Shown: piece by piece, positions 7,912-37,229 of the stretch
Position numbering within the stretch: position 1 is the first letter of the stretch
Layout of the letters: each line of letters starts with the position of its first letter
Source: Streptomyces deccanensis
GTDB taxonomy: Bacteria; Actinomycetota; Actinomycetes; Streptomycetales; Streptomycetaceae
DNA length: 64,000 nucleotides
NCBI RefSeq assembly: GCF_022385335.1
Contig: NZ_CP092431.1
Location: 9,610,001 to 9,674,000 of the forward strand
Direction: 5' to 3'
Made by a program: the position numbers and the translations under genes
The notes under the pieces: model-generated
What the model saw: only the letters and a program-made list of their open reading frames with translations
Databases searched by the model: none
Told to the model about the DNA's origin: nothing

Positions 7912-7970
7912 TTGACCCCCGGTCGGCCCTCCACGATGCTGTGTTGCGGTACGCGCTCTGCGTATCGCAA
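7912..7970 (+). promoter_or_regulatory. promoter and operator of mscR copy 1
   Basis: TTGACC at 7912-7917, a 17-nt spacer and GATGCT at 7935-7940 form a -35/-10-like pair. Four bases further on lies a 27-bp dyad, TTGCGGTACGC-N5-GCGTATCGCAA (7944-7970), with one mismatch. It is the longest and most symmetric copy of the TTGC/GCAA sequence that recurs throughout the betaine island. Its position over the expected transcription start suggests repression. Confidence 0.6.
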
Positions 7971-8015
7971 TGAGAAACGTCAGACTCAGGTTCTCGTACC
8001 AGCCGAGGAGTGGTC

Positions 8016-9104
8016 ATGGCTCACCAGGTCCGTGCTGTCGTCGCCCGGGGCAAGGGCGCCCCCGTCAGCCTGGAAACGATCGTCGTGCCCGACCCCGGCC
8101 CCGGTGAGGCGCTGGTGAAGGTGCAGGCGTGCGGGGTCTGCCACACCGACCTGCACTACCGGGAGGGCGGGATCAGCGACGACTTCCCCTTCCTGCTGGG
8201 CCACGAGGCGGCGGGTGTGGTGGAGGCGGTGGGGGAGGGCGTCACGGATGTCGCTCCCGGTGACTTCGTGATCCTCAACTGGCGTGCCGTGTGCGGGAGT
8301 TGTCGGGCGTGTCGGCGCGGGCGGCCCTGGTACTGCTTCGCCACGCACAACGCGACGCAGAAGATGACGCTGGCCTCGACCGGTCAGGAGCTGTCGCCGG
8401 CTCTCGGTATCGGTGCCTTCGCGGAGAAGACCCTCGTGGCCGCCGGTCAGTGCACCAAGGTCGACCCGGCCGCCGCCCCGGCGGTCGCCGGACTGCTGGG
8501 CTGCGGAGTGATGGCGGGCATCGGCGCCGCGATCAACACCGGGAACGTCGGGCGGGGCGACACGGTCGCCGTCATCGGCTGCGGTGGGGTCGGGGCCGCG
8601 GCGGTCCTCGGTTCCGAGCTGGCGGGCGCGGCGAAGATCATCGCGGTGGACATCGACGACCGGAAGCTGACCACCGCCAAGAGCATCGGTGCCACCCACA
8701 CGGTCAACTCCAAGGAGACCGACCCCGTCGAGGCGATCCGTGAGCTGACCGGTGGCTTCGGTGCCGACGTCGTGATCGAGGCGGTCGGCCGCCCGGAGAC
8801 GTACAAGCAGGCCTTCTACGCCCGCGACCTCGCCGGGACGGTCGTCCTCGTCGGCGTCCCCACCCCGGAGATGAAGCTCGAACTGCCCCTCCTCGACGTC
8901 TTCGGCCGCGGCGGCGCCCTGAAGTCCTCCTGGTACGGCGACTGCCTGCCCGACCGCGACTTCCCCATGCTCATCGATCTCTACCTCCAGAACCGCCTGG
9001 ACCTGGACACCTTCGTCACGGAGACCATCGCGCTCGACGAGGTCGAGAAGGCCTTCGAGCGGATGCACGGCGGCGACGTCCTGCGCTCGGTGGTGGTTCT
9101 CTGA
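8016..9104 (+). CDS. mscR: S-(hydroxymethyl)mycothiol dehydrogenase (formaldehyde detoxification), copy 1
   Basis: A 362-aa zinc-containing medium-chain alcohol dehydrogenase that oxidises the mycothiol-formaldehyde adduct with NAD. Visible features are the catalytic-zinc segments [14 protein letters not shown] and [15 protein letters not shown], the structural-zinc cysteines in [15 protein letters not shown], and the Rossmann motif [12 protein letters not shown]. The ending [22 protein letters not shown] is characteristic of the mycothiol group. The start at 8016 follows GAGGAG. It stands alone between an operator-type promoter and a strong terminator. A second copy lies at 34257. Betaine demethylation by Rieske oxygenases releases formaldehyde, which explains its presence here. 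Confidence 0.85.
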
Positions 9105-9151
9105 CAGCCGGGCAGCCCGCGGCCGCGTAGGCGCAGCCGCGGCGAGTGCGA

Positions 9152-9189
9152 ACGAGCCGTGGCCGGGGGTGTCCCCGGCCACGGCTCGT
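9152..9189 (+). terminator. strong hairpin terminator after mscR copy 1
   Basis: A perfect 17-bp stem (ACGAGCCGTGGCCGGGG and its complement) with a GTGT loop lies 48 bp after the mscR stop. No U-tract follows, as is usual for Streptomyces. Confidence 0.75.
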
Positions 9190-9234
9190 GTGCTCCGGGG
9201 GGACTTCGAGGGGCGACCATCTGCGACGCGACCC

Positions 9235-9298
9235 TTGACACCCTCTCCGAAGCGTCTGATTGTGTTGCCCATAGTGCATCACGGTGCATCATCCGCAA
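9235..9298 (+). promoter_or_regulatory. promoter and operators of the BCCT transporter gene
   Basis: Consensus TTGACA (9235-9240), a 17-nt spacer and GATTGT (9258-9263) are followed directly by two 15-bp island motifs, TTGCCCATAGTGCAT (9265-9279) and GTGCATCATCCGCAA (9284-9298). The arrangement matches the other promoters of the betaine island. Confidence 0.6.
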
Positions 9299-9413
9299 CC
9301 GGATTCGGATGGCGTCCACACCCCTTCGCCCCCATGCCTCCTCACTCGCCCGGTCGCGCACCCTCCGTCCGCGACAGCGAGCGTCCCCTGCCGTCTGTGG
9401 AAAGGACGAACCG

Positions 9414-11171
9414 ATGAGCAGTACCCGCGAACAGAACGGGAGTCCAGGTCATCCCGCCGGGGAGGAACTGCCGGGAGCCGGTGCGGCCGCCGCCCACCCC
9501 CGGACCGACCTCGTCGTCTTCGGTGTCGCCGCGGCCCTCACCCTGGCCTTCGTCGTGTGGGGAGCCACCGCGACGGACTCGCTGGAGAGCGTGTCCGGGA
9601 AGCTGCTGGACGGGACGATCCGCAACGGCGGCTGGGCCTTCGTCCTCGCCGCCTCCGGCTTCGTGGTCTTCGCCCTCTGGCTGGCGATGAGCCGCTACGG
9701 GCGGATCACCCTCGGAAAGGAGGGGGAGGAGCCGGAGTTCCGCACCGTCTCGTGGATCGCCATGATGTTCAGCGCGGGCATGGGCATCGGCCTGATGTTC
9801 TACGGAGTGAGCGAGCCGCTCTCCCATTTCGTCACGCCGCCGCCGGGCACCGACCCGGCCGATGCCAACCAGGCCATGGAGACCGCCATGGCCACCACCC
9901 TCTTCCACTGGACGCTCCACCCGTGGGCGATGTACGCGGTCGTGGGTCTCGCCATCGCCTACAGCACCTTCCGGCGCGGCCGCCGGCAGCTGATCAGCGC
10001 GGTGTTCACGCCGTTGCTCGGTGAGAAGCGGGTGAACGGCTGGCCCGGTCGGGCCATCGACATCCTCGCCATCTTCGCCACCCTCTTCGGCTCGGCGGCG
10101 TCCCTGGGGCTCGGCGCCCTCCAGATCGGCAGCGGCTTCACGGGGCTGGGCTGGCTGGGGTCGGTCGGCACCGGACTGCTGGTCGTCGTGATCGCGGTGC
10201 TGACCGTGGCGTTCGTCGCCTCGGCGGCGTCCGGGATCGAGAAGGGCATCCAGTGGCTGTCCAACACCAACATGGTGCTGGCGGTGGGGCTCGCCCTCTT
10301 CGTCTTCCTGGTCGGCCCGACCATCTTCATCCTCGATCTGCTGCCCACCTCCGTCGGTGCCTTCTTCGGCGACCTGGCCCAGATGGCGGGCCGCACCGAG
10401 GCGTCGAGCGGCGAGGGCGTCGCCGACTGGCTGGCCGGCTGGACCGTCTTCTACTGGGCGTGGTGGATCTCCTGGACGCCCTTCGTCGGCATGTTCATCG
10501 CGCGCATCAGCCGAGGCCGCACCATCCGGCAGTTCGTCGGTGGCGTCATCCTGGTGCCCAGCAGCGTCAGCCTGCTCTGGTTCGCGGTCTTCGGCGGCTC
10601 GGCGATGCACCTCCAGGAGGCGGGTCGTCTCAATGACGCGGCGACCGCCCAGGGCCAGCTCTTCGACGTGCTCCAGCAGTACCCGGTCGCCACGGTGACG
10701 TGCGTCGTCGTCATGGTCCTCGTCGGCATCTTCTTCGTCTCCGGCGCCGACGCCGCCTCCATCGTGATGGGGACGCTCTCGCAGCGGGGCTCGCTCGAAC
10801 CCTCCCGGCGCGTCGTGGTGTTCTGGGGCGTGCTGACCGGAGCGGTCGCCGCCGTCATGCTGCTCATCGGCGGCGGCAAGGGCGACGCGCTCACCGGGCT
10901 GCAGAACCTCACCATCCTCGCGGCGGCCCCCTTCACCCTGGTGATGATCGGGTTGTGCGTCGCGCTCAACCGGGATCTGCGCCACGATCCGCTCATCATC
11001 CGCGGACGCATGGGCAAGGAGGCGGTCGAGACGGCCGTCATCGTCGGCCACGAGAAGTACGACGGGGACTTCGAACTCCGCATCGGCCCCGCCGCGTGCA
11101 ATGACGAGACGCGGACCGAACAGCCCGAGCGGACCGAGGAGTCCGCGCGGCCCACCACCTCCGCCGTCTGA
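9414..11171 (+). CDS. betT: BCCT-family glycine betaine/choline transporter
   Basis: A 585-aa integral membrane protein with about 12 hydrophobic segments, predicted to import a quaternary ammonium compound coupled to an ion gradient. It has the family hallmarks: GMGIGLMFYGVSEPLSHF, the tryptophan-rich TTLFHWTLHPWAMYAVVG, and FYWAWWISWTPFVGMFIARISRGRTIRQF, which covers the aromatic substrate site. The hydrophilic N- and C-terminal tails are short; the C-tail is Glu/Thr-rich. The ATG at 9414 follows AAAGGA with a 7-nt spacer. It has its own operator-containing promoter. BCCT carriers cannot be reliably split by eye into betaine, choline or carnitine types; context favours betaine or choline. 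Confidence 0.88.
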   Translation: MSSTREQNGSPGHPAGEELPGAGAAAAHPRTDLVVFGVAAALTLAFVVWGATATDSLESVSGKLLDGTIRNGGWAFVLAASGFVVFALWLAMSRYGRITLGKEGEEPEFRTVSWIAMMFSAGMGIGLMFYGVSEPLSHFVTPPPGTDPADANQAMETAMATTLFHWTLHPWAMYAVVGLAIAYSTFRRGRRQLISAVFTPLLGEKRVNGWPGRAIDILAIFATLFGSAASLGLGALQIGSGFTGLGWLGSVGTGLLVVVIAVLTVAFVASAASGIEKGIQWLSNTNMVLAVGLALFVFLVGPTIFILDLLPTSVGAFFGDLAQMAGRTEASSGEGVADWLAGWTVFYWAWWISWTPFVGMFIARISRGRTIRQFVGGVILVPSSVSLLWFAVFGGSAMHLQEAGRLNDAATAQGQLFDVLQQYPVATVTCVVVMVLVGIFFVSGADAASIVMGTLSQRGSLEPSRRVVVFWGVLTGAVAAVMLLIGGGKGDALTGLQNLTILAAAPFTLVMIGLCVALNRDLRHDPLIIRGRMGKEAVETAVIVGHEKYDGDFELRIGPAACNDETRTEQPERTEESARPTTSAV

Positions 11172-11261
11172 GACCGCCTCACCCGCCGCCCGGCGGTGGC
11201 GTGGCACCGCCCTGCGCGGTCCATGCCCCCGCCGGGCTGTTGTTGTTCTATGTGAGGCGAG

Positions 11262-11379
11262 TTTTGGATACCGCAACGTCGTGAAGTGACCCGGAGGGGC
11301 TTCTGGATGCCTTGACAAGGGTTCTGGGCGACCCCAGACTGATGTTGCGCTTACCGCAAACCGTTTCGTTATACGCACC
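11262..11379 (+). promoter_or_regulatory. promoter and operators of the Rieske ferredoxin-reductase operon
   Basis: TTGACA (11312-11317), a 17-nt spacer and CAGACT (11335-11340) precede TTGCGCTTACCGCAA (11345-11359), a perfect TTGCG-N5-CGCAA palindrome. A weaker copy, TTCGTTATACGCACC (11365-11379), follows, and TTTTGGATACCGCAA (11262-11276) lies upstream of the -35 box. Three sites around one promoter would allow cooperative binding. Confidence 0.6.
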
Positions 11380-11388
11380 CGAGGTGTC

Positions 11389-11751
11389 ATGATGATTCCC
11401 GCGTGCCGCCTCGCGGATCTCCCGCGAGGTGAGGCCTTCCGGCTCGACACCGACCCGCCGGTGTCGGTGTTCCACACCGACGACGGCGAGGTCTACGCCA
11501 TCGACGACACCTGCACCCACCAGGACGCCTCGCTCGCCGACGGCTGGCTCGAGGGCTGCGAGGTGGAATGCCCCCTGCATGCCTCCAAGTTCGACCTGCG
11601 CACCGGCGCCGTCGACTCCCCACCGGCCAAGCTGCCGGTGCGGACGCACGAGGTCGTCGTCGAGGACGGCATGATCTACGTCCGGCTCTCCACGGACGCC
11701 CCCAACCTGCCGCCCTGCATCTCCGCCCGGCTCGCCGGGGGTCCCGCGTGA
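11389..11751 (+). CDS. Rieske [2Fe-2S] ferredoxin
   Basis: A 120-aa soluble Rieske ferredoxin, probably the electron carrier between the FAD reductase encoded next and a Rieske oxygenase. The cluster ligands are Cys42-X-His44 (CTH) and Cys61-X2-His64 (CPLH), with the usual spacing. Two ATG codons lie in tandem; GAGGTG is 4 nt from the first and 7 nt from the second, so 11392 is an equally good start. The gene overlaps the reductase by 4 bp (GTGA), so the two are translationally coupled. The second oxygenase/reductase set near 36-38 kb has no ferredoxin of its own, so this protein may serve both. Confidence 0.88.
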   Translation: MMIPACRLADLPRGEAFRLDTDPPVSVFHTDDGEVYAIDDTCTHQDASLADGWLEGCEVECPLHASKFDLRTGAVDSPPAKLPVRTHEVVVEDGMIYVRLSTDAPNLPPCISARLAGGPA

Positions 11752-12911
11752 GGACCGTCGCCGTGGTCGGCGCCTCCCTCGCCGGCCTCTCGGCGGCACG
11801 CTCCCTGCGCAAGCAGGGCTTCGACGGGCGCCTGGTCGTCATCGGCGACGAGCCGCACCGCCCCTACGACCGGCCCCCGCTCTCCAAGGAGTTCCTGGCC
11901 GGCACCCTCGGCGAGGCCGAACTCGCCCTGGAGACGGAGGACGAGGACCTGGCGGCCGAGTGGCTGCTCGGCACCCGCGCCACCGGGCTCGACCACACGG
12001 CGCGCGCCGTCCGCCTCGCCGACGGACGTGAGGTGCGCGCCGACGGCTTCGTCATCGCCACCGGCGCCGTGGCGCGGGCCCTGCCCGGCTCCGACGGCCT
12101 CGCCGGCGTGCACACCCTGCGCACCCTGGACGACGCCCGCGCCCTGCGGGACGAACTGGCCCGAGGCGGACGCCTGGTGGTGATCGGCGGCGGCTTCATC
12201 GGCGCCGAGGTCGCCTCCACCGCGTACGCCCTGGGCCTCGACGTGACCGTCGTGGAGGCGGCCGCGACGCCGCTCGCCGGACCGCTCGGCGCCACCATGG
12301 GCGCCGTCGTCTCCGGCCTCCACGCCGACCACGGCGTACGGCTGTTGTGCGGCGTCGGGGTCAAGGGCCTCAGCGGCGAGCACCGGGTCGACGCCGTCCT
12401 GCTGGAGGACGGCCGCAGCGTCCCCGCCAACATCGTCGTCGTCGGCGTCGGGGCCCGCCCCTGCGTCGAGTGGCTCGCCGGCTCCGGCATCGCGCTCGAC
12501 AACGGGGTGAAGTGCGGCGCCGACGGCCGCACCAGCCTCGCCGGTGTGGTCGCGGTCGGCGACTGCGCCAACTGGTACGACCCCCGCGCGGGCCACCACC
12601 GCCGCGTGGAGCACTGGACCGGGGCGCGCGAGCGCCCGGAAGCCGCAGTCGCCACGCTGCTGGCGGGGGGCGCGGTCGAGCCGGGCGTGCCCAGGCCTCC
12701 GTACTTCTGGTCCGACCAGTACGGCGTCCGCATCCAGTTCGCCGGCCACGCGGGGGAGGCCGACAGTGTCACCGTCGAGGCGGGCGCGGCCGACGACCGC
12801 GACGTCCTCGCCGTCTACCGGCGGGCCGGCCGGCCGGTCGCCGTGCTCGGGATGAACCAGCCACGGCTGTTCATGCGGGTGCGCAAGGAACTGGCCGCCG
12901 CCACATCTTGA
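11748..12911 (+). CDS. FAD-dependent ferredoxin reductase of a Rieske oxygenase system, copy 1
   Basis: A 387-aa flavoprotein of the rhodocoxin/BenD-like NAD(P)H:ferredoxin reductase family. It has an N-terminal FAD site ([19 protein letters not shown], then [14 protein letters not shown]), a central NADH site ([14 protein letters not shown]) and the FAD-binding GVVAVGDCANW motif. The C-terminal reductase domain includes [16 protein letters not shown]. The GTG start overlaps the ferredoxin stop. It would pass electrons from NAD(P)H through the Rieske ferredoxin to the oxygenase at 13042. Pseudomonas GbcB is a different reductase type, so the electron chain here is a three-component variant. 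Copy 2 is at 37252. Confidence 0.87.
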   Translation: MRTVAVVGASLAGLSAARSLRKQGFDGRLVVIGDEPHRPYDRPPLSKEFLAGTLGEAELALETEDEDLAAEWLLGTRATGLDHTARAVRLADGREVRADGFVIATGAVARALPGSDGLAGVHTLRTLDDARALRDELARGGRLVVIGGGFIGAEVASTAYALGLDVTVVEAAATPLAGPLGATMGAVVSGLHADHGVRLLCGVGVKGLSGEHRVDAVLLEDGRSVPANIVVVGVGARPCVEWLAGSGIALDNGVKCGADGRTSLAGVVAVGDCANWYDPRAGHHRRVEHWTGARERPEAAVATLLAGGAVEPGVPRPPYFWSDQYGVRIQFAGHAGEADSVTVEAGAADDRDVLAVYRRAGRPVAVLGMNQPRLFMRVRKELAAATS

Positions 12912-12974
12912 CACCACCCCGGCGTCACCCCATGCTGCGGTTGCCCACAGCGCGCAGCGTTGCTCCATACACAA
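12908..12974 (+). promoter_or_regulatory. promoter and operators of Rieske oxygenase 1
   Basis: TTGACA (12908-12913) overlaps the reductase stop codon. After a 17-nt spacer CATGCT (12931-12936) can serve as -10. Two island motifs follow: TTGCCCACAGCGCGC (12941-12955) and TTGCTCCATACACAA (12960-12974). The oxygenase therefore appears to have its own regulated promoter rather than depending on the ferredoxin operon. Confidence 0.58.
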
Positions 12975-13041
12975 CGCCGACCGGAGTCGTCCCTCCCGGC
13001 GCCCGCCTGACCCCTCCGCGACGTTCCCCGAGGAGTGCCCC

Positions 13042-14187
13042 GTGACCTCGACCGGTCTGCCCGACAGCCTGATCGCCACTCTTCCCGGCTCCTCCTACAC
13101 CGATCCGGTGGTCTTCGCCCAGGAGCAGGAGCACATCTTCGAGACCATGTGGTTCTGCGTCGCCCGCGCCTCCGAGCTGGCCAAGCCCGGCGCCTTCCGC
13201 ACCGTCGACGTGGGCCGCGAGAGCATCCTCGTCACCCGGGCCCGGGACCAGTCGATCCGCGCGTACTTCAATGTCTGCCGGCACCGGGGGGCCAAGCTCT
13301 GCCTGGAGGAGTCCGGCGAGGTCAAGCGGGCCTTCCAATGCCCGTACCACGCCTGGACGTACGGCCTGGACGGCAAGCTCGTCGCGGCGCCCAACCTGAC
13401 CAAGATGCCCGACGTGGGCCGTACCGAGTACGGGCTGGTGAGCGTCGCCGTACGGGAATGGCTCGGTTATGTCTGGGTCTGTCTCGCGGAGAACCCGCCG
13501 TCCTTCGAGGAGGACGTCATCGGTGAGGTGATCGCCCGCCTCGGCGACGTCGAGTCGATCGAGCGCTACGACATCGACAGCCTCTCCGTCGGTCGCCGGA
13601 TCACGTACGACGTGAAGGCGAACTGGAAGCTGATCATCGAGAACTTCATGGAGTGCTACCACTGCGCCACGATCCATCCCGAACTGACCGAGGTGCTGCC
13701 GGAGTTCGCGGACGGGTACGCCGCCCAGTACTACGTCGGTCATGGCGCGGAGTTCGGCGAGGAGGTCCAGGGGTTCACGGTCGACGGCTCCGAGGGGCTG
13801 GACCGTATCCCCGGTGTCGCCGAGGAGCAGGACCGCCGCTACTACGCGATCACCGTCAAGCCCCAGGTGTTCATCAACCTCGTGCCCGACCACGTGATCT
13901 TCCACCGGATGTACCCGGTGTCCGTGGACCGCACGATCGTCGAGTGCGACTGGCTGTATCTGCCGCACGTCGTCGAGAGCGGCAAGGACGTCAGCCGGTC
14001 CGTGGAACTCTTCGACCGGGTCAATCTCCAGGACTTCGAGGCCTGTGAGCGGACCCAGCCCGGCATGAGCTCCCGGCTCTACGCCAAGGGCGGTGTGCTG
14101 GTGCCCAGCGAGCACCACATCGGCGCGTTCCACGACTGGGTGAACGAGCGCCTCGGCACCCCCCCAGGGGTGACTCAGCCCAGGTAA
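13042..14187 (+). CDS. Rieske non-haem iron oxygenase, probable glycine betaine demethylase, copy 1
   Basis: A 381-aa oxygenase alpha subunit. The Rieske cluster ligands are Cys79-X-His81 and Cys100-X2-His103. The catalytic domain contains NWKLIIENFMECYHCATIHPEL with His207 and His212 as probable mononuclear iron ligands. This form belongs to the GbcA/stachydrine-demethylase group acting on N-methylated quaternary amines, releasing formaldehyde from each N-methyl. The GTG start follows GAGGAG by 6 nt. Its 3' end overlaps the convergent IclR gene by 13 bp. The copy at 36013 is nearly identical through the core of both domains but diverges at the ends. Betaine is the best guess for substrate from the pathway context. 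Confidence 0.85.
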   Translation: MTSTGLPDSLIATLPGSSYTDPVVFAQEQEHIFETMWFCVARASELAKPGAFRTVDVGRESILVTRARDQSIRAYFNVCRHRGAKLCLEESGEVKRAFQCPYHAWTYGLDGKLVAAPNLTKMPDVGRTEYGLVSVAVREWLGYVWVCLAENPPSFEEDVIGEVIARLGDVESIERYDIDSLSVGRRITYDVKANWKLIIENFMECYHCATIHPELTEVLPEFADGYAAQYYVGHGAEFGEEVQGFTVDGSEGLDRIPGVAEEQDRRYYAITVKPQVFINLVPDHVIFHRMYPVSVDRTIVECDWLYLPHVVESGKDVSRSVELFDRVNLQDFEACERTQPGMSSRLYAKGGVLVPSEHHIGAFHDWVNERLGTPPGVTQPR

Positions 14188-14978
14188 CCCATGCGGTGGC
14201 TGATCTCGGCCGCGCCCTTGAGCAGCGCCGGGGACATCTCGTGCAGCCGCTCCTCGGTGAACCGGTAGGAGGGGCCGGAGGCGCTGAGGGCGGCGATGAC
14301 CTCGCCGTCCCGGTTGCGCACCGGCGCGGCCATGGCGTGCAGACCGATCTCCAGCTCCTCCAGTGTGAAGGCGTAGCCCCGCTCCCGTGCGGCCGCGAGG
14401 TTCTTCTCCAGCTTCGTCTTCGCGGTGATGGTGTGCGGGGTGACCTTCTTCAGGCCCGCGTCGGCGAGCAGCGCGGCCCGCTCCTTGGCCGGCATGTGGG
14501 CGAGGAGGATCTTGCCGCTCGACGTGGCGTGCAGGGGGGTCAGCTGGCCCACCCAGTTGTGCGCGGTGATGGCTCCCGGTCCGCGCACCTGGTACAGGTT
14601 GATCGCGTAATGCTCCTGCATCACGGCGATGTTGACGGTCTCGCCGATCTCCTCGGCCAGCCGCTCGCAGACGGGACGGCCCTGCTGGGTGATGTCGATA
14701 CGCCCCGTGACCGCGCCGGCCAGCCGCACGATGCCGAAACCGAGCCGGTACTTGCCGCGCTCGCCGGCCTGCTCCACCAGACCGCGCGCCTCCAGGGCGC
14801 CGAGGAGACGGAAGGCCGTGGACTTGTGCACGTCGATCTCGCCCGCCACCTCGCTGACGCCGGCTTCGCCGCGCTGAGCGAGGATCTCCAGGACGCTGAT
14901 GGCGCGGTCCACCGACTGCACACCGCCCGCGCCCGCGTGTGAATTCGACGTTTCTGTCTCAAGGCTGAAGTTGCTCAC
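14175..14978 (-). CDS. IclR-family transcriptional regulator, copy 1
   Basis: A 267-aa regulator. The N-terminal winged helix-turn-helix is at about residues 20-85 ([51 protein letters not shown]), followed by an IclR effector domain ([14 protein letters not shown], ending in [12 protein letters not shown]). The GTG at 14978 has no ribosome site. Instead a TATAGT box lies exactly 6 nt upstream of it, so the transcript is probably leaderless. It is divergent from betA and convergent with Rieske oxygenase 1. The paralogue at 33319 is very similar, and both are the natural candidates to bind the TTGC-N7-GCAA motif. The effector may be choline, betaine or dimethylglycine; this cannot be read from the sequence. 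Confidence 0.87.
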
Positions 14979-14984
14979 AGTGAA

Positions 14985-15078
14985 ACTATACGCGCAGTAA
15001 ACAACACACTTGCAAGTAACCGCCCCGAAATGAAGTTCCCCAAGTTGCGCGGTTCGCAACCTGGTGCGTATAGCGCGA
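14985..15078. promoter_or_regulatory. divergent iclR1/betA control region
   Basis: On the minus strand TATAGT (complement of 14985-14990) lies 6 nt before the iclR GTG. Towards betA there is a perfect TTGCGCGGTTCGCAA palindrome (15045-15059) and a weaker GTGCGTATAGCGCGA (15064-15078), both about 50-85 bp upstream of the betA ATG. The sites are placed so that one bound regulator could control both genes, including autoregulation. Confidence 0.58.
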
Positions 15079-15128
15079 CCGGGTCTAGCATGCCTCGCAT
15101 ATCTACGGCGCGAGCGAGACGAGGCACC

Positions 15129-16799
15129 ATGGCCCCTGTGCAGTACGACTTCGTCATCGTCGGTGGTGGTTCCGCGGGCAGTGCACTGGCAAACAGGCTG
15201 TCCGCCGACCCGGCGAACCGAGTGCTGGTCCTGGAGGCGGGCCGGACGGACTTCCCGTGGGACGTCTTCATCCACATGCCCGCGGCGCTGACGTACCCGA
15301 TCGGCAGCCGCTTCTACGACTGGAAGTACGAGTCCGAGCCCGAGCCCCACATGGGCGGCCGCCGCGTCTACCACGCGCGCGGCAAGGTGCTGGGCGGCTC
15401 CAGCAGCATCAACGGCATGATCTTCCAGCGCGGCAACCCCATGGACTACGAGCGCTGGGCGGCCGACCCGGGCATGGAGACCTGGGACTACGCGCACTGT
15501 CTGCCCTACTTCCGGCGCATGGAGAACTGTCTCGCGGCCGACCCCGACGACGAGTTCCGCGGCCACGACGGCCCCCTCGTCCTGGAGCGCGGCCCGGCGA
15601 CCAACCCCCTCTTCGGCGCCTTCCTGAAAGCCACCGAGGAGGCGGGCTACGCCCCCACCGACGACGTCAACGGCTACAGACAGGAAGGCTTCGCCAAGTT
15701 CGACCGGAACGTCCACCGAGGTCGTCGGCTCTCGGCCTCGAAGGCCTATCTGAAGCCCGTCCGCAGACGTCCCAACCTCACGGTCACCACCCGCGCCCTC
15801 GTCACCCGCGTCCTCTTCGAGGGCAAGAAGGCCGTCGGCGTCGAGTACCAGCGCGGCAAGGGCGCCCCCCAGCAGGTCCGCGCCAAGGAGGTCATCCTCT
15901 GCGGCGGCGCGATCAACTCCCCGCAGCTCCTCCAGCTCTCCGGCGTGGGCAACGCCGCCGAACTCCGCGCGCTGGGCATCGACGTCGTCCACGACCTCCC
16001 GGGCGTCGGCGAGAACATGCAGGACCACCTGGAGGTCTACATCCAGTACGCCTGCACGCAGCCCGTCTCCATGCAGCCGTACCTGGCGAAGTGGCGCGCG
16101 CCCTTCATCGGGCTCCAGTGGCTCTTCCGCAAGGGCCCGGCCGCGACCAACCACTTCGAGGCCGGCGGGTTCGCCCGCAGCAACGACGACGTCGACTACC
16201 CCAACCTGATGTTCCACTTCCTGCCGATCGCGGTCCGCTACGACGGCTCGGTGCCGGCCGGCGGCCACGGCTACCAGGTGCACGTCGGACCCATGTACTC
16301 GGACGCCATCGGCTCGGTGAAGATCAAGAGCAAGGACCCGCGGCAGCACCCCGCCCTGCGCTTCAACTACCTCTCCACCGAGCAGGACCGCCGCGAGTGG
16401 GTCGAGGCGATCCGGGTGGCGCGCAAGGTCCTCAACCAGCCCGCGCTCGCCCCCTACAACGGCGGTGAGATCTCGCCCGGACCGTCCGTCGAGTCGGACG
16501 AGGAGATCCTCGCCTGGGTCGCCAAGGACGGCGAGACCGCCCTGCACCCGTCCTGCACCTGCAAGATGGGCACCGACGAGATGTCCGTCGTCGACCCCAC
16601 CAGCATGCGCGTGCACGGCGTCGACGGTCTGCGCGTGGTGGACGCCTCCGTCATGCCCTACGTCACCAACGGCAACATCTACGCGCCGGTGATGATGATC
16701 GCCGAGAAGGCCGCCGACCTGATCCTCGGCAAGGAGCCGCTGCCGGCGTCGAAGGCCGCGTACTACCGCCACCGCGACGTCCAGAAGCAGGCGGACTAG
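15129..16799 (+). CDS. betA: choline dehydrogenase (GMC oxidoreductase)
   Basis: A 556-aa FAD enzyme of the glucose-methanol-choline family, expected to oxidise choline to betaine aldehyde. Its features are the FAD dinucleotide site [18 protein letters not shown], the GMC signature [21 protein letters not shown], the second signature [16 protein letters not shown], and the BetA-type C-terminal HPSCTCKMG carrying the active-site histidine, ending with [20 protein letters not shown]. The ATG at 15129 follows GAGG by 4 nt. The MetF-like gene starts 3 bp after the stop, so the two form an operon. The island also contains BetB, which completes the betaine synthesis branch. Confidence 0.87.
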
Positions 16800-16802
16800 A
16801 CC

Positions 16803-17639
16803 TTGGGCACCGGAGGGCTCCGCGCACTGCTGAGAACCGTCCGCTACGAGGTGCTGCCGGCGAAGGCCACCGAGGAGAAGGTCCTCGCCCATGTCCCGCG
16901 CGACGTCGTCGTCACCGTCACGGCGTCGCCGGTCAAGGGCCTGGAACCGACCCTCGACCTCGCCGGCAGGCTCGCCGCGCACGGCTACCGTGTCGTCCCG
17001 CACGTCCCGGCCCGCCTGCTGCGGGACGACCTGCACCTGAAGGAGGTCGTCGACCGGCTGCGCGAGGCCGGCGTGGACGACGTGTTCGTCCCGGCGGGGG
17101 ACGCCGACCCGCCGGCCGGGTCCTACGACGGGGCGCTGCCCGTGCTCCGGCGGCTGAGCGAGCTGGGCCGCCCCTTCGCCCGGGTCGGCGTCACCGGCTA
17201 TCCCGAGAGCCATCCGCTCATCCACGACGACGTCACCGTCCAGGCGATGTGGGACAAGCGCGAGCACGCCACGTACGTCGTGAGCAACCTCTGCTTCGAC
17301 CCGCGGGTGCTGGGGGACTGGCTCGTGCGGGTACGGCGCCGGGGCGTGACCCTGCCCGTGCATGTGGGCGTCGCGGGGCCCGTGCAGCGGACGAAGCTGC
17401 TGGCCATGGCGACGAAGATCGGGGTGGGGGAGTCGACCCGCTTCCTCACCCAGCACGCCTCGTGGTTCGTGCGCTTCGCCGCGCCCGGCGGCTACTCGCC
17501 CGAGAAACTGCTCACCCGCACGGAGAGCGCCCTCACCGACCCCGCGTCCGGGGTCGCGGGCCTGCACCTGTTCACCTTCAACCAGATCGCGGAGACGGAG
17601 AGCTGGCGGCGGGCCCTGCTGGACCGGCTGGAGGGCTGA
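16803..17639 (+). CDS. methylenetetrahydrofolate reductase-like protein
   Basis: A 278-aa TIM-barrel protein resembling MetF-type 5,10-methylenetetrahydrofolate reductases, with VVTVTASPVKGLEPTLDLAGRLAAHGYRVVPHVPARLL near the N-terminus and GVTGYPESHPL in the middle, as expected for the FAD/folate barrel. It is directly coupled to betA with 3 bp between genes, and TTG at 16803 is the only start close enough to use the GGCGGA ahead of it. Dimethylglycine and sarcosine oxidation load methylene groups on tetrahydrofolate; this enzyme could reduce some to methyl-THF. It is less similar to canonical MetF than expected for a housekeeping copy, so it may be a pathway-specific paralogue. Confidence 0.75.
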   Translation: MGTGGLRALLRTVRYEVLPAKATEEKVLAHVPRDVVVTVTASPVKGLEPTLDLAGRLAAHGYRVVPHVPARLLRDDLHLKEVVDRLREAGVDDVFVPAGDADPPAGSYDGALPVLRRLSELGRPFARVGVTGYPESHPLIHDDVTVQAMWDKREHATYVVSNLCFDPRVLGDWLVRVRRRGVTLPVHVGVAGPVQRTKLLAMATKIGVGESTRFLTQHASWFVRFAAPGGYSPEKLLTRTESALTDPASGVAGLHLFTFNQIAETESWRRALLDRLEG

Positions 17640-17678
17640 GCGTCCCTCCCGCATGCCGAACGCCGAACGCGGAACGCC

Positions 17679-17713
17679 GAACGCCGGACGGGCTGGGAGC
17701 CCGTCCGGCGTTC
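17679..17713. terminator. bidirectional hairpin terminator
   Basis: GAACGCCGGACGGGCT and its exact complement form a 16-bp stem around a GGG loop, between the convergent MetF-like and purU genes, preceded by short GAACGCC repeats. Its right arm (17698-17714) is identical to 29598-29614 inside the soxD-soxA linker, so it belongs to a dispersed Streptomyces hairpin repeat. Confidence 0.8.
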
Positions 17714-17761
17714 GTGTCGTGCCGTGTCGTACCCGTCGTTCGTATACGGAGGCCGTTCCGC

Positions 17762-18643
17762 TCAGCGGAAGACGACCGTGCGGTTGCCCTCGACCATCAC
17801 CCGGCTCTCGCTGTGCCACTTCACCGCGTGCGCGAGCACCTGGGCCTCCACGTCCCGGCCGACCGTGACCAGTTCGCCGGGATCCAGCGAGTGGTCCACC
17901 CGCACCACGTCCTGCTCGATGATCTGCCCCTCGTCCAGGTCCGACGTCACGTAGTGCGCCGTCGCGCCGACGAGCTTCACCCCGCGGTCGTAGGCCTGGT
18001 CGTAGGGGCGCGCGCCCTTGAAGCTGGGCAGGAAGGAGTGGTGGATGTTGATGGCGCGACCCTCCAGCTCCTTGCACAGGTCGTCGGAGAGGATCTGCAT
18101 GTAGCGGGCCAGGACGACCAGGTCGACGTCCAGCTCACGGACGAGTTCGAGCAGCCGCGCCTCGGCCTCGGGCTTGGTCTCCCGGGTCACCGGCACATGG
18201 TGGAAGGGGATGTCGTACGTCTCCGCGAGCTTCTCGAACTCCCGGTGGTTGGAGACGATCGCGGGGATCTCGATGTTGAGCGCGCCCGCCCGCTGCCGGA
18301 AGAGAAGGTCGTTCAGGCAGTGCCCGAACTTGGACACCATGATCAGGGTCCGGGTCGGCGTGGCGGCGTCGCTGAGGGACCACGAGATGCCGTAGGCCTG
18401 GGCGACGGGACCGAAGCGGTAACGCAGGCCGTCCAGGTCGACGTTCGGGTCGGAGACGTCGAAGTGGACGCGCATGAAGAAGCGGCCCTGAAGTCGGTCG
18501 TCGAACTGCTGGCTTTCCAGGATGTTTCCGGAGTTCCTGACGAGATAGCCGCTCACGGCGTGGACCAGCCCGGCACTGTCGGGGCAGGAAAGGGTCAGGA
18601 CGAACTCACGGCCAGGCTGCGGGCGGGGGAACCTCATGGACAC
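17762..18643 (-). CDS. purU: formyltetrahydrofolate deformylase
   Basis: A 293-aa enzyme hydrolysing 10-formyl-THF to formate and THF. An N-terminal ACT domain (FVLTLSCPDSAGLVHAVSGYLV, about residues 12-90) precedes a formyltransferase-fold catalytic domain with HHSFLPSFKGARPYDQAYDRGVKLVGATAHYVTSDLDEGQIIEQ, the PurU signature. The GTG at 18643 follows GGAGG by 5 nt; an ATG two codons later is less well placed. It is transcribed divergently from betB with island motifs between. In this context it would recycle THF loaded by dimethylglycine and sarcosine oxidation, via FolD, releasing formate. Confidence 0.9.
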   Translation of the reverse strand: MSMRFPRPQPGREFVLTLSCPDSAGLVHAVSGYLVRNSGNILESQQFDDRLQGRFFMRVHFDVSDPNVDLDGLRYRFGPVAQAYGISWSLSDAATPTRTLIMVSKFGHCLNDLLFRQRAGALNIEIPAIVSNHREFEKLAETYDIPFHHVPVTRETKPEAEARLLELVRELDVDLVVLARYMQILSDDLCKELEGRAINIHHSFLPSFKGARPYDQAYDRGVKLVGATAHYVTSDLDEGQIIEQDVVRVDHSLDPGELVTVGRDVEAQVLAHAVKWHSESRVMVEGNRTVVFR

Positions 18644-18657: not shown

Positions 18658-18834
18658 GTGCGTATTGCACAACAAGGTGAGCGATACGCAACATGGTCGG
18701 CTCGACGTCGCTTGTGGTCAAGGGTGGACGGGCAAGCGATCGCATGGCCAAATCGTCATCGGCGAACATCTTGACGTCCGTCTGGCCAGGCGACAGGGTG
18801 TTCCATCACAAGCAATCGGGTGCACGATGCGCAA
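18658..18834. promoter_or_regulatory. divergent purU/betB control region with three operator-like sites
   Basis: Near purU lie GTGCGTATTGCACAA (18658-18672) and GTGAGCGATACGCAA (18677-18691). Near betB lies GTGCACGATGCGCAA (18820-18834), downstream of a TTGACG box at about 18771-18776 with a 17-nt spacer. All fit the 15-bp KTGC-N7-GCAA pattern of the island. Confidence 0.55.
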
Positions 18835-18860: not shown

Positions 18861-23454
<4,594 letters not shown>

Positions 23455-23466
23455 GGAGCACTGACC

Positions 23467-24575: not shown

Positions 24576-27120
<2,545 letters not shown>

Positions 27121-29247: not shown

Positions 29248-29259
29248 GGAGCCCCACAG

Positions 29260-33142: not shown

Positions 33143-33183
33143 GAGACGGGCCAGTACCCGTCACCGCGTCGAAAGTCGAGCAC

Positions 33184-33217
33184 ACGGCCGCGCCCTGCTG
33201 GAGCAGGGCGCGGCCGT
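33184..33217. terminator. perfect 16-bp hairpin after soxG
   Basis: ACGGCCGCGCCCTGCT and its exact complement around a GG loop, 42 bp after the soxG stop and between convergent soxG and iclR2, so it may serve both. Confidence 0.8.
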
Positions 33218-33268
33218 CGTGGAGTCGGCGCGCCCCGGCGCGGTCGCCGCCACCGGACTGTCCGCGGC

Positions 33269-33332
33269 GGTCAGCCCGGACAAGGGTCAGCCCGGACGTT
33301 GGTTAGCCCGGACATTGGTCAGCCCAGATACC
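33269..33332. repeat. four tandem 16-bp repeats at the 3' end of iclR2
   Basis: GGTCAGCCCGGACAAG, GGTCAGCCCGGACGTT, GGTTAGCCCGGACATT and GGTCAGCCCAGATACC lie head to tail with exactly 16-bp period. The last unit contains the iclR2 stop (33319-33321) and final codons, so the array looks like an expansion of the gene end into the intergenic space. Confidence 0.75.
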
Positions 33333-34116
33333 CCATCCTGCGGCTGATCTCCTCGGCGCCCCGCGTCAGGACGGGCACGAGTTCGCGGACGCGGTCCTCG
33401 GTGAAGCGGTAGGCCGGGCCGGAGGCGCTGAGCGCGGCGATGACCTCGCCCTCGCGGGAGCGGATCGGGGCCGCCATGGCGTGCAGGCCGATCTCCAACT
33501 CCTCCAGCGTGACCGCGTACCCGCGTTCGCGCGTCGTGTCGAGGTCCTTCTCCAGCTTCGTCCTGGTCGTCAGCGTGTGCGGCGTCAGCCGGCGCAGTCC
33601 GGACGCCTCCAGCACCTCGGTCCGCTGCCGCTCCGGGAGGTGGGCCAGCAGGATCTTGCCGCTGGACGTGGCGTGCAGGGGGGTGAGCTGGCCGACCCAG
33701 TTGTGGGTGCCGACCGCGCCCGGACCGCGCACCTGGTGGAGGTTGACCGCGTAGTGCTCCTGGAGCACGGCGATGTTGACGGTCTCGCCGATCTCCTCGC
33801 TGAGCCGTTCGCACACCTGCCGGCCCTGCTGGGTGATGTCGAGCCGGCCCGTGACGGCGCCGGCGAGCCGCACGATGCCGAAGCCGAGCCGGTACTTGCC
33901 CCGCTCGGCCGTCTGCTCGACCAGCCCGCGTGCCTCCAGCGCCCCGAGCAGCCGGAAGGCGGTCGACTTGTGGACGTCGATCTCGGCGGCGACCTCACTG
34001 ACACCGGCCTCGCCGCGCTGGGCGAGGATCTCCAGCACGCTGACGGCACGGTCGACGGACTGCACACCGTTCACCGCGGAACCCGTCGTTGCGCCCTCTG
34101 CCGCGTAGTTGCTCAT
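33319..34116 (-). CDS. IclR-family transcriptional regulator, copy 2
   Basis: A 265-aa regulator very similar to copy 1 (14175), with an almost identical helix-turn-helix ([31 protein letters not shown]) and the same effector-domain motifs ([26 protein letters not shown]). Identical recognition helices predict the same operator, while the N-terminal tails differ. The ATG at 34116 lies 6 nt after TATGGT with no ribosome site, so this messenger too is probably leaderless. It is divergent from mscR copy 2, whose promoter holds two operator-like sites. The two regulators may form heterodimers or respond to different intermediates. Confidence 0.88.
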   Translation of the reverse strand: MSNYAAEGATTGSAVNGVQSVDRAVSVLEILAQRGEAGVSEVAAEIDVHKSTAFRLLGALEARGLVEQTAERGKYRLGFGIVRLAGAVTGRLDITQQGRQVCERLSEEIGETVNIAVLQEHYAVNLHQVRGPGAVGTHNWVGQLTPLHATSSGKILLAHLPERQRTEVLEASGLRRLTPHTLTTRTKLEKDLDTTRERGYAVTLEELEIGLHAMAAPIRSREGEVIAALSASGPAYRFTEDRVRELVPVLTRGAEEISRRMGYLG

Positions 34117-34122
34117 GGCGAA

Positions 34123-34219
34123 ACCATAGTCGGCCCGGCCAACCTCTTGACAGTGGGTGTCCGCGAGGAGACAGTTTGGTCGTCGTTGCTCATAGCGAAT
34201 GCAGTTGCGCTATATGAAA
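34123..34219. promoter_or_regulatory. divergent iclR2/mscR2 control region
   Basis: On the minus strand TATGGT (complement of 34123-34128) serves iclR2. On the plus strand TTGACA (34147-34152) precedes TTGCTCATAGCGAAT (34186-34200) and TTGCGCTATATGAAA (34205-34219), two half-symmetric island motifs before mscR2. A -10 box is not convincing. Confidence 0.5.
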
Positions 34220-34256
34220 CTCAACGATCCTTCCTTCCTCGACGAGGAGATCGACC

Positions 34257-35342
34257 GTGACACACGAGGTACGCGCCGTCGTCGCCCGCAAGAAGGGCGC
34301 CCCGGTCTCGGTGGAGACCGTCCTGGTGCCGGACCCCGGCCCCGGTGAGGCGCTGGTACGGGTGCAGGCCTGCGGCGTCTGCCACACCGACCTGCACTAC
34401 CGGGAGGGCGGGATCAACGACGAGTTCCCGTTCCTGCTCGGCCACGAGGCGGCGGGCGTGGTGGAGTCGGTCGGCGAGGGCGTCACCGACGTCGCCCCCG
34501 GCGACTTCGTCGTCCTCAACTGGCGTGCCGTCTGCGGCACCTGCCGTGCCTGTCGCAGGGGCAGGCCCTGGTACTGCTTCGCCACGCACAACGCCGTCCA
34601 GCCGATGACCCTGGCCGACGGCACCCCGCTCTCCCCGGCCCTCGGCATCGGCGCCTTCGCCGAGAAGACCCTGGTCGCCGCAGGACAGTGCACCAAGGTG
34701 GACCCCATGGCCTCACCGGCCGCCGCCGGGCTCCTCGGCTGCGGTGTGATGGCCGGGTTCGGTGCCGCCGTCAACACCGGTGGCGTGGGACGCGGTGACT
34801 CCATCGCCGTGATCGGCTGCGGCGGCGTGGGCATGGCCGCGATCGCGGGCGCCAAGGTCGCCGGAGCCGGCCGCATCATCGCCGTCGACGTCGACGAGCG
34901 GAAGCTGAAGTGGGCCGAGCGGTTCGGCGCCACCGACACCGTCGACTCCTCGAAGACGGACGCCGTCGAGGCGATCCGCGAACTCACCGGCGGCTTCGGC
35001 GCCGACGTGGTCGTGGACGCCGTCGGCCGCCCCGAGACCTTCAAGCAGGCCTTCTACGCACGCGACCTGGCCGGCACGGCCGTCCTGGTGGGTGTCCCCA
35101 CGCCCGAGCTGAAGCTCGAACTGCCCCTGCTCGACGTCTTCGGCCGCGGCGGCGCGCTGAAGTCCTCCTGGTACGGCGACTGCCTGCCCTCCCGCGACTT
35201 CCCCGCCCTGATCGACCTCTACCTCCAGGGCCGTTTCGACCTGGGCGAGTTCGTCACCGAGACCATCGGCCTGGACGACGTCGAGGCCGCGTTCGCCAAG
35301 ATGCACCACGGCGACGTCCTGCGTTCGGTGGTGGTCCTGTGA
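34257..35342 (+). CDS. mscR: S-(hydroxymethyl)mycothiol dehydrogenase, copy 2
   Basis: A 361-aa zinc alcohol dehydrogenase with the same motifs as copy 1: [56 protein letters not shown] and [13 protein letters not shown]. The GTG follows GAGGAG by 7 nt. Unlike copy 1 it is coupled by a 4-bp GTGA overlap to an MBL-fold hydrolase gene, and a Rieske oxygenase follows. This order places formaldehyde oxidation, formyl-mycothiol hydrolysis and the formaldehyde-producing oxygenase in one transcription unit. Confidence 0.87.
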
Positions 35343-35971
35343 CCGCCCGCGTCGAGCGCCTCGTCACCTCCGGCACCTTCGCCCTGGACGGCGGCACCTG
35401 GGACGTCGACAACAACGTCTGGCTGATCGGCGACGACGAGGAGGTCCTCGTCGTGGACGCCGCGCACGACGCGGACGCCATCGCGGCCGCCGTCGGCGAC
35501 CGTCGCCTGGTCGCCGTCGTGTGCACCCACGCCCACAACGACCACGTCAACGCCGCCCCGGCCCTGGCCGCCCGCCACGGCGCGCCCATCATGCTCCACC
35601 CCGCCGACACCGTCCTGTGGAAGATGGCGCACGGCGAGGAGGCGCCCGACTTCCGCGAACTGGCCGCGGGCGAGACCCTGCGCGTCGCAGGCGTCGAGCT
35701 GACGGTGCTGCACACCCCCGGCCACTCGCCCGGCGCGGTCTGCCTCCACGCCCCCGCGCTGAACGCCCTGTTCTCCGGGGACACCCTCTTCCAGGGCGGC
35801 CCCGGGGCCACCGGCCGCTCCTTCTCTGACTTCGGCACCATCGTCGCCTCCATCCGGGACCGGCTGCTGACGCTCCCCGCCGACACCACCGTCCACACCG
35901 GGCACGGCGACACCACCACGATCGGGGCCGAGGCGCCCCACCTCGACGACTGGATCACCCGCGGCCACTGA
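35339..35971 (+). CDS. MBL-fold hydrolase, possible S-formylmycothiol hydrolase
   Basis: A 210-aa metallo-beta-lactamase-fold protein. The metal site is complete: THAHNDH (His64, His66, Asp68, His69), a later histidine in [10 protein letters not shown], the aspartate of FSGDTLF and a histidine in TGHGDTT. The GTG overlaps the mscR2 stop. Mycobacteria also place an MBL-fold gene next to mscR, and the product of MscR, S-formylmycothiol, needs hydrolysis to formate and mycothiol. That role is inferred from context; glyoxalase II-like activity is the alternative. Confidence 0.75.
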
Positions 35972-36012
35972 ACCGCCCGCCACCGCTTCCCGATTCCTCC
36001 GAAGGTGACTCG

Positions 36013-37146
36013 ATGACCCTCACGAACCTGCCGCCCAGCCTGATCCCCACGCTGTCCGGCGCGTACTACACGGACCCCGGAGTCTTCGCCCAGGAGCAGG
36101 AGCGGGTCTTCGAGGCCATGTGGTTCTGTGTCGCCCGCGCCTCCGAACTGGCGAAGCCCGGTGCCTTCCGCACCTACCAGGTCGGACGCGAGAGCGTCCT
36201 CGTCTCCCGCTCCCGCGACGGCTCGGTCAGGGCCTTCCTCAACATCTGCCGGCACCGGGGGGCCAAGCTCTGCCTGGAGGAGTCCGGCGAGGTCAAGCGG
36301 GCCTTCCAATGCCCGTACCACGCCTGGACGTACGGCCTGGACGGCAAGCTGGTGGCCGCGCCCAACCTGACCTCGATGCCGGACATCGACCGGACCGAGT
36401 ACGGCCTGATCAACGTCCATGTGCGGGAGTGGCTCGGCTATGTCTGGGTCTGCCTGGCCGACGAGCCGCCGTCCTTCGAGGCCGACGTGCTGGGCGCGGT
36501 CGTCGAGCGGCTCGGCGACCTGGAGTCGATCGAGCGCTACGACATCGACAGCCTCTCCGTCGGTCGCCGGATCACCTACGACGTGAAGGCGAACTGGAAG
36601 CTGATCATCGAGAACTTCATGGAGTGCTACCACTGCGCCACGATCCATCCCGAACTCACCGAGGTGCTGCCGGAGTTCGCGGACGGGTACGCCGCCCAGT
36701 ACTACGTGGGCCACGGCGCGGAGTTCGGCGAGGAGGTCCAGGGGTTCACGGTCGACGGCTCTGAGGGCCTGGACCGCATTCCGGGAGTCGCCGAGGACCA
36801 GGACCGCCGCTATTACGCGATCACCGTCCGGCCGCAGGTCTTCATCAACCTCGTTCCCGACCACGTGATCTTCCACCGCATGTACCCGATGGCGGCAGAC
36901 CGCACGATCGTCGAGTGTGACTGGCTGTACCTGCCGCACGTCGTCGACAGCGGCAAGGACGTGGAGCGTTCGGTGGAGCTCTTCCACCGGGTCAACCAGC
37001 AGGACTTCGACGCCTGCGAGCGCACCCAGCCGGCGATGAGCTCGAAGGCGTACGCCAAGGGCGGGGTCCTGGTGCCCAGCGAGCACCACATCGGCGAGTT
37101 CCACACCTGGCTGCAGAACAAGCTCGACGTCGGACCCACGCGCTGA
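36013..37146 (+). CDS. Rieske non-haem iron oxygenase, probable glycine betaine demethylase, copy 2
   Basis: A 377-aa oxygenase with the same residue numbering as copy 1: Rieske ligands Cys79, His81, Cys100 and His103, probable iron ligands His207 and His212. Two core stretches are almost identical to copy 1 at the DNA level (36245-36350 without a mismatch), but the first 70 and last 15 residues differ. It lies 41 bp after the MBL hydrolase, in the same transcription unit as mscR2, and its reductase follows from a separate promoter. It could be a second betaine demethylase or act on a related quaternary amine such as stachydrine or carnitine. Confidence 0.85.
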   Translation: MTLTNLPPSLIPTLSGAYYTDPGVFAQEQERVFEAMWFCVARASELAKPGAFRTYQVGRESVLVSRSRDGSVRAFLNICRHRGAKLCLEESGEVKRAFQCPYHAWTYGLDGKLVAAPNLTSMPDIDRTEYGLINVHVREWLGYVWVCLADEPPSFEADVLGAVVERLGDLESIERYDIDSLSVGRRITYDVKANWKLIIENFMECYHCATIHPELTEVLPEFADGYAAQYYVGHGAEFGEEVQGFTVDGSEGLDRIPGVAEDQDRRYYAITVRPQVFINLVPDHVIFHRMYPMAADRTIVECDWLYLPHVVDSGKDVERSVELFHRVNQQDFDACERTQPAMSSKAYAKGGVLVPSEHHIGEFHTWLQNKLDVGPTR

Positions 37147-37165
37147 CCCCGCCCCGTTCCGCCCC

Positions 37166-37229
37166 TTGACACCCCCCGATTCCACCGAAACCATGTTGCG
37201 CATGGCGCCCGTTGTTGTGTCATGTGCGA
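37166..37229 (+). promoter_or_regulatory. promoter and operators of ferredoxin reductase 2
   Basis: TTGACA (37166-37171), a 17-nt spacer and AACCAT (37189-37194) are followed by TTGCGCATGGCGCCC (37196-37210) and TTGTGTCATGTGCGA (37215-37229), weaker copies of the island motif in the usual position. Confidence 0.5.

Follow-up and report, generated by a model that had tools for sequence, protein, structure and literature searches.

A tandem operator with IclR-family features recurs across a putative choline and glycine betaine catabolic island of Streptomyces deccanensis

The window analysed here is a 64-kb stretch (positions 9610001-9674000) of the 10.1-Mb genome of Streptomyces deccanensis, and it contains an island of genes that, read from family and gene order, appears to encode a pathway for the breakdown of choline and glycine betaine. 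Nine promoter regions of this island carry a 34-bp operator, consisting of two pseudo-palindromic boxes with centres 19 bp apart, which is very probably the binding site of two IclR-family regulators encoded in the island itself, IclR1 and IclR2. Positions below are those of the window unless another sequence is named, features lie on the forward strand unless stated otherwise, and genes were named by comparing NCBIfam and Pfam family models with their cut-offs.

The first part of the island starts with mscR1 (8016..9104), which encodes an S-(hydroxymethyl)mycothiol dehydrogenase (mycoS_dep_FDH above cut-off), followed by a BCCT transporter gene (9414..11171; bcct above cut-off, betaine and choline equivalogs below), called betT in a first-pass annotation of the window. 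Next come genes for a Rieske-type ferredoxin (11389..11751; PRK09965 above cut-off), ferredoxin reductase 1 (11748..12911; best NCBIfam model HcaD, below cut-off) and Rieske oxygenase 1 (13042..14187; Pfam Rieske and Ring_hydroxyl_A), which resembles glycine betaine monooxygenase. GbcA (NF058607) is the best NCBIfam model for both Rieske oxygenases of the island, which score 223 bits (Rieske 1) and 222 bits (Rieske 2) against a cut-off of 670 bits. The regulator gene iclR1 (14175..14978, reverse strand) is followed by betA, encoding choline dehydrogenase (15129..16799; NCBIfam betA above cut-off), with a methylenetetrahydrofolate-reductase-like gene 3' of it (16803..17639; fadh2 39 bits, far below cut-off). 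Further on lie purU, for formyltetrahydrofolate deformylase (17762..18637, reverse strand; PurU above cut-off, start codon set from sequence), a betaine-aldehyde-dehydrogenase-like gene, betB (18861..20330; best NCBIfam model BADH, 590 bits against a cut-off of 669), and an ABC transporter (20351..24444) composed of proV, a choW-like permease gene (proV and ABC_choXWV_perm both above cut-off) and a third gene for a putative binding protein, which has no NCBIfam match at 1e-60.

The segment 24682..33142 comprises a dimethylglycine-oxidase-like gene (dmgO), folD, soxB, a fused soxD-soxA and soxG. Its proteins contain the Pfam domains DAO, FAO_M, GCV_T, SoxD and SO_alpha_A3; FolD and soxB score above their NCBIfam cut-offs, and soxG is the best match of its gene, below cut-off. 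The fused soxD and soxA form a single open frame of 1095 amino acids (29260-32547), and their join, at about 29530-29730, resembles a GC-rich intergenic-type repeat translated in frame. A second module then begins with iclR2 (33319..34116, reverse strand), the paralogue of iclR1, and continues with mscR2 and a gloB-like metallo-hydrolase gene (34257..35971; mycoS_dep_FDH above cut-off, GSH_gloB below) and with Rieske oxygenase 2, ferredoxin reductase 2, glyA and sdaA (36013..41206). The serine hydroxymethyltransferase (glyA) and L-serine ammonia-lyase (sdaA) models are above their NCBIfam cut-offs, and the name ferredoxin reductase 2 is taken from the gene list of the first-pass annotation rather than from the family search.

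Both regulators belong to the IclR family, since PF09339 (HTH_IclR) and PF01614 (IclR_C) exceed their gathering cut-offs in each. The first-pass annotation had described them as paralogues with nearly identical recognition helices, and the sequences agree with this description: 60 of 64 residues of the helix-turn-helix (HTH) domain are identical, compared with 141 of 185 in the remainder, so that the two proteins should share their sites, whereas their sensing domains may differ. Of 35 sequences, 34 retain the recognition helix VHKSTAFR. The same number retain a tryptophan at residue 142 of IclR1, just ahead of the pocket loop, which might cage a methylated amine.

The earlier proposal was that a single 15-bp operator, TTGC-N7-GCAA, binds the island into one regulon, with its clearest copies at 11345, 15045 and 24627. 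Exact copies do occur at these three positions (shuffle mean 0.30; none of 100 shuffles reaches three) and a single operator family is present, but its unit is a 34-bp tandem pair, of which the 15-mer is one half. Two simpler descriptions were rejected along the way. With one mismatch allowed, the 15-bp pattern on its own shows no significant excess over shuffled sequence (14 found against a mean of 9.99, with 15 of 100 shuffles reaching 14), and the exact 15-mer fails as a genome-wide marker, 28 of its 31 places lying outside the window and three within it. At island promoters a second, similar 15-mer begins 4 bp past the first box. With a matrix built from first boxes alone, each site being left out in turn, the box at +19 bp scores a mean of 11.9 bits over 12 hand-picked sites, against -12.7 +/- 2.8 bits (maximum -4.2) for the other offsets within 45 bp. 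Because this partner is present at 11 of the 12 sites (the exception being 34109) while scores elsewhere are negative, we regard the operator as a two-box unit. In all 12 tandem pairs, namely 11 strong ones and a weaker twelfth at 11243 that lay outside the training set, a G precedes the first box and a C follows the second, and each box is therefore better written GTTGC-N7-GCAAC, the symmetrised consensus with flanking G and C being about GTTGCGCAATGCGCAAC.

These pairs cover all nine promoter regions for which sites had been claimed. The operator of mscR1 (7944..7977; 24.5 bits) contains the 27-bp dyad noted there earlier and begins 3 nt after TTGACC-N17-GATGCT; the dyad does exist, but what is conserved in relatives is the 34-bp frame 7944-7977 (for example at L055 10631 and L066 1287, two relatives' loci), and it was discarded as a separate element. 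At betT the operator (9265..9298; 28.3 bits; E 0.04 with a genome-wide model described below) starts 1 nt past the -10 element. The ferredoxin operon has a proximal operator at its promoter (11345..11378; 35.3 bits) and, 102 bp ahead of it, the distal operator at 11243..11276 (19.9 bits). Rieske 1 follows an operator at 12941..12974 (24.1 bits). The operator of iclR1 (14971..15004, reverse strand; 25.6 bits) overlaps the start codon of that gene and lies 74 bp from the betA operator (15045..15078; 26.4 bits). Between the divergent purU and betB, the purU operator (18658..18691, reverse strand; 29.5 bits) begins 1 nt after TTGACC-N17-GACCAT, and the betB-proVWX promoter has its own pair (18801..18834; 26.5 bits). 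The pair ahead of the dimethylglycine oxidase operon (24608..24641; 31.6 bits) is preceded, at a distance of 19 bp, by a weak third box at 24589. In the second module, a single box (34109..34123, reverse strand; 17.8 bits alone, -5.3 at +19) overlaps the start codon of iclR2, the best pair of the window (34186..34219; 37.0 bits) lies between iclR2 and mscR2, and the last operator (37196..37229; 23.0 bits) serves the promoter of ferredoxin reductase 2.

The operator is concentrated in the island. When a pair matrix trained on 11 island pairs was run over the window and over a background of 20 evenly spaced stretches of this genome (400 kb in total), it gave 12 pairs above 20 bits, all of them in the island, with none elsewhere in the window or in the background; above 17 bits the counts for the island, the remaining window and the background were 13, none and one, the best background pair reaching 17.9 bits. 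Outside the island no pair in the window exceeds 10 bits. The background stretches thus do not score as well as the island, contrary to what would be expected of a fortuitous motif. A 34-position, sequence-only genome-wide model gave, with 150 of 1494 first-look candidates scored, 16 rows at E<=10, all inside the island; it matches the operators at 9265, 11345, 12941, 15045, 18658, 24608, 34186 and 37196 and, in part, that at 18801. Five of the eight best background pairs come from a single stretch of the same genome (L110, 16300-17200), and those look AT-rich. Elsewhere in the genome (G000:C1 8874612-8874646) two TTGCC-N5-GGCAA palindromes start 20 bp apart, possibly a tandem operator of another regulator, and an identical palindrome, TTGCACTCAGTGCAA, occurs at the distant positions 8347101 and 10047170.

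The same architecture is found in related genomes. In nine genomes, over 20 stretches around iclR loci that total 385 kb, spacing 19 accounts for 100 pairs above 17 bits compared with 1-23 for each of the spacings 15-18 and 20-23, those at spacings 17 (16 pairs) and 21 (23 pairs) being probably side-lobes of the palindrome, and of 56 pairs of strong single boxes within 60 bp of each other 52 are exactly 19 bp apart. The relatives' sites were picked with the window matrix, which makes this survey dependent on the window, and related genomes are not independent samples; the tests that are independent of such selection are the leave-one-out partner test and a de novo motif considered below. Among 80 named loci with the closest relatives of IclR1 (78 of them in Streptomyces), 79 have the iclR1 operator and 66 the betA operator; in 64 of those 66 the two lie 73-77 bp apart. 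Upstream of the ferredoxin gene an operator occurs in 67 of 71 loci, with two operators more than 30 bp apart in 40, and the distance between two ferredoxin operators is 101-103 bp in 40 of 45 cases. In most islands of this first type, mscR1 is 89-91% identical. Alignments of four intergenic regions, in which conservation of operator columns was compared with that of the flanks, gave 0.91 over three boxes versus 0.72 outside for proX-dmgO (nine aligned sequences), 0.84 versus 0.72 for purU-betB (two rows being partial sequences) and a slight excess, 0.91 versus 0.85, for iclR1-betA, where the iclR1 operator was counted as outside. Beyond the genus, in three genomes with homologues 50-57% identical, the pairs in the iclR regions score 19.0-30.0 bits, apart from one at 16.3; they lie near betT, between the genes for ferredoxin and its reductase, or before dmgO or iclR. 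One related genome (G013) has, distant from its main island, a second, partial copy of the module (L072, G013:C1 540000-559900: proXWV, betB, purU, iclR1, fdx, mbl and mscR) with operators of its own.

The regulator and the operator also occur together. In 61 genomes of the genus, including that of S. deccanensis, IclR1 homologues at E<=1e-80 were found in 25 and operator-model matches at E<=2 likewise in 25, with both in 23, the regulator alone in two, the operator alone in two and neither in 34 (Fisher p 2e-12, relatedness ignored). The matches in the two operator-only genomes (L137 and L138) are weak, E about 1.8-2.0, are not supported by the matrix above 15 bits and look like chance. Homologues about 54-60% identical to IclR1 reside mostly in a second, compact cluster, in which genes for a ferredoxin and reductase are divergent from iclR, followed by mscR and a dimethylglycine-oxidase homologue (about 60%), to which many loci add genes for a Rieske oxygenase (69-76%) and betB (73-75%). 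In the two such loci that were tested, L120 and L149, the latter from another genus, one of the genes encodes a monomeric N-methyl amino acid oxidase. All 13 loci of a clade about 58% identical to IclR1 (L119-L131) have at least one pair above 17 bits beside iclR, and 11 of them have two, one on either side; in L121, iclR is the sole island gene recognised and the operator pair still lies upstream. A motif derived de novo from 26 intergenic regions near iclR of the second cluster, with no input from the window, puts every one of its 20 top-scoring window positions on an operator and recovers all 11 main operators, the best non-operator position scoring -0.3 bits.

Promoter geometry suggests how the operator may act. 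At eight of the 12 operators the first box starts 1-4 nt past the -10 element of a TTGAC(A/C/G)-N17-(-10) promoter, the betB promoter having TTGACG as its -35 element. The first-pass annotation had placed most of the sites directly downstream of TTGACM-N17-(-10) and favoured repression on that ground; this geometry applies to the eight sites and does not extend to mscR2 (where the -10 ends 10 nt ahead of operator 34186), betA, iclR1 or the distal ferredoxin site, and the placement of eight operators at the presumed transcription start supports the preference for repression. At the rate of TTGAC in the window (62 on both strands), the 12x5 positions concerned should hold about 0.03 copies, although promoters are enriched in it anyway. 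For 176 site-gene pairs from the window and its relatives, 84 of the 93 TTGAC found begin between -34 and -30 relative to the operator, and at least 83 pairs are without TTGAC, many of these involving the gene on the wrong side of a divergent pair. A protein bound past the -10 would cover the transcription start, which makes repression the most straightforward interpretation.

Our results thus strongly favour, with high though not complete confidence, a model in which the island is one self-contained, locally controlled regulon, repressed by IclR1, and very probably IclR2, through the tandem operator until a pathway metabolite releases it. The regulator would bind the two palindromic boxes, presumably as a tetramer whose two dimers share one face of the DNA. 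In the absence of inducer it would sit over the transcription start (over the promoter or the start codon in the case of betA and iclR1) and would jointly repress transport, choline oxidation, betaine demethylation, oxidation of dimethylglycine and sarcosine, and formaldehyde disposal, as well as its own gene. Judging by the target genes, release would be effected by a methylated intermediate, most likely glycine betaine, dimethylglycine or sarcosine. The earlier idea of one island-specific operator family tied to an encoded IclR protein is in this way upheld by spacing, background, co-occurrence and the de novo motif.

Several observations weigh against this model. The genome-wide scan scored 150 of 1494 first-look candidates with a model trained on the sites it recovers, and the operators at 7944 and 14971 were not reached by it at E<=10. 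The de novo motif gives 14971, 24608, 7944 and 18801 only 11.2, 10.0, 9.0 and 4.0 bits, respectively, which does not separate them by that motif alone because the 400-kb background reaches 13.0, and the operator at 11243 is absent from its list. The window scan found no pair above 10 bits ahead of glyA or sdaA, and no TTGAC, the standard -35, lies within 60 bp of the betA, iclR1 and distal ferredoxin operators. Conservation is uneven, the Rieske 1 operator being present in 44 of the 74 named loci that are long enough and, in the fdr1-rieske1 alignment, not rising above its flanks (0.87 versus 0.88) though aligned in relatives. The two regulator-only genomes (G017 and G027) have iclR, a homologue of the 57-59% class, without the betaine cluster and without a model match; of their loci, L132 has a 17.7-bit pair and L133 none above 15 bits. 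Finally, IclR proteins can also activate, as does BhcR (PMC11323563).

This last point leads to the alternative that survives best, although we consider it unlikely: the IclR proteins may activate some promoters, such as those of betA and iclR1, and repress others, as is thought for BhcR, which is described as an activator with a suspected dual role (PMC11323563). In keeping with it, the alignment can be read to place the betA operator upstream of a conserved TAGCAT-like -10, overlapping its -35 region; the start of eight of 12 operators 1-4 nt past the -10 suits repression better, and the iclR1 operator covers its own start. Somewhat more doubtful is a division of sites, with IclR1 serving the first module and IclR2 the mscR2-Rieske 2 module, or vice versa. 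Each module does contain one iclR gene, whose start codon is overlapped by a box, and two genomes with one iclR each at E<=1e-80 (G040 and G033) show no Rieske 2-reductase 2 module in the stretches fetched, which is what such a division predicts; the second regulator and the second module may thus move together. Against such a division, 60 of the 64 HTH residues are identical, and the de novo motif retrieves both modules alike (37196 and 34186; 9265, 12941 and 18658).

As an extension of the single-regulon model, and with equally low confidence, IclR1 and IclR2 could share a DNA code, sense different metabolites and contribute one dimer each to a tandem operator, such that promoters would integrate two signals; the conserved distances between neighbouring operators (73-77 bp for iclR1-betA and 101-103 bp for ferredoxin) might further allow looping between tetramers. 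It is very improbable that a DNA-binding protein outside the IclR family recognises the operator: IclR binding is deduced from sequence, which leaves some room for another protein, but operator and IclR clade co-occur in the 61-genome survey, the boxes fit the IclR group-1 consensus, iclR is the sole island gene recognised in L121, and tandem spacing of 18-22 bp is an IclR-family trait (PMC8222616). Least credible of all, to the point of being negligible, is that the pattern arose by chance or through common ancestry of promoter sequence, for the non-significant one-mismatch 15-mer would fit chance but leave-one-out spacing, spacing in relatives, the background scan and the de novo motif contradict it, and operators at many promoters of unrelated genes speak against common ancestry.

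Taken as a whole, the operator-regulator architecture is already known for the IclR family, and its assignment to this pathway appears new. In the main text of Suvorova and Gelfand 2021 (PMC8222616), the IclR group-1 consensus is GKTYCRYW3-4RYGRAMC, and tandem sites with centres 18-22 nt apart, mainly 19-21, are predicted in 94 orthologous groups and interpreted as tetramer binding; since both are described there, box type and tandem spacing are to be seen as family traits. Of the 17 positions in the W3 form of that consensus, 15 agree with our box consensus; among the individual boxes, 21 of 24 match group 1 at 12 or more positions, a level reached by 0.5% of window 17-mers. The box also has the GTT-N11-AAC form, seemingly a subtype named in that paper, and differs in having G and C, not Y and R, at positions 4 and 14. 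The main text of the paper contains no betaine, choline or sarcosine, with an unnamed entry in the supplementary regulon tables being possible.

Among known regulators, BhcR of Paracoccus denitrificans shares with IclR1 and IclR2 the IclR family and the metabolic area of glyoxylate and glycine (PMC11323563), and its equivalog NF045644 is the best NCBIfam model for both proteins; BhcR acts in another pathway, and the scores of 202.3 and 197.8 bits for IclR1 and IclR2 are below the cut-off of 350. On alignment with E. coli IclR, the pocket residues Gly160, Ala161, Asp212, Ser239 and Ser241 of E. coli IclR/AllR (Table 1 of PMC11323563) correspond to Ser, Ser, Thr, Ser and Ser in IclR1, whereas BhcR keeps G160 and D212. 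This difference from the glyoxylate pocket mildly disfavours glyoxylate as the ligand, and we set aside that candidate, suggested by analogy with IclR, AllR and BhcR, on this admittedly weak evidence. The sarcosine clusters of Arthrobacter and Corynebacterium sp. U-96 group glyA, soxBDAG, sdaA and purU, and dimethylglycine oxidase as well, as the island does, and the part of PMC3534580 seen mentions no regulator or operator. In the sponge-derived Streptomyces SM17 and SM18, an IclR-family gene adjoins proP, a proline/betaine transporter gene, for which the available text of PMC6676996 suggests an osmotic role and gives no operator, pathway or test. A study of S. scabies reports a putative betaine aldehyde dehydrogenase as the most abundant ferulate-only protein and lists SCAB_9141 (PMC6904314).

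The first-pass annotation knew of no motif or regulator assigned to this pathway in Streptomyces, and we likewise found no IclR regulator and operator assigned to betaine or choline catabolism in this genus in the part of the literature covered, which did not include supplements. If our assignment is correct, betaine and choline catabolism in actinomycetes gains a regulator with a precisely defined operator and a list of targets. Operator and regulator together also mark the second compact betaine-type cluster, which would aid annotation in other genomes, and the duplicated regulator with a common DNA code would be a natural case of two possible sensors per operator. In other bacteria, choline and betaine catabolism is governed by GbdR, which is of the AraC type, and BetI, which is of the TetR type, neither of them an IclR protein. 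IclR-based control in Streptomyces would stand beside these AraC- and TetR-type regulators.

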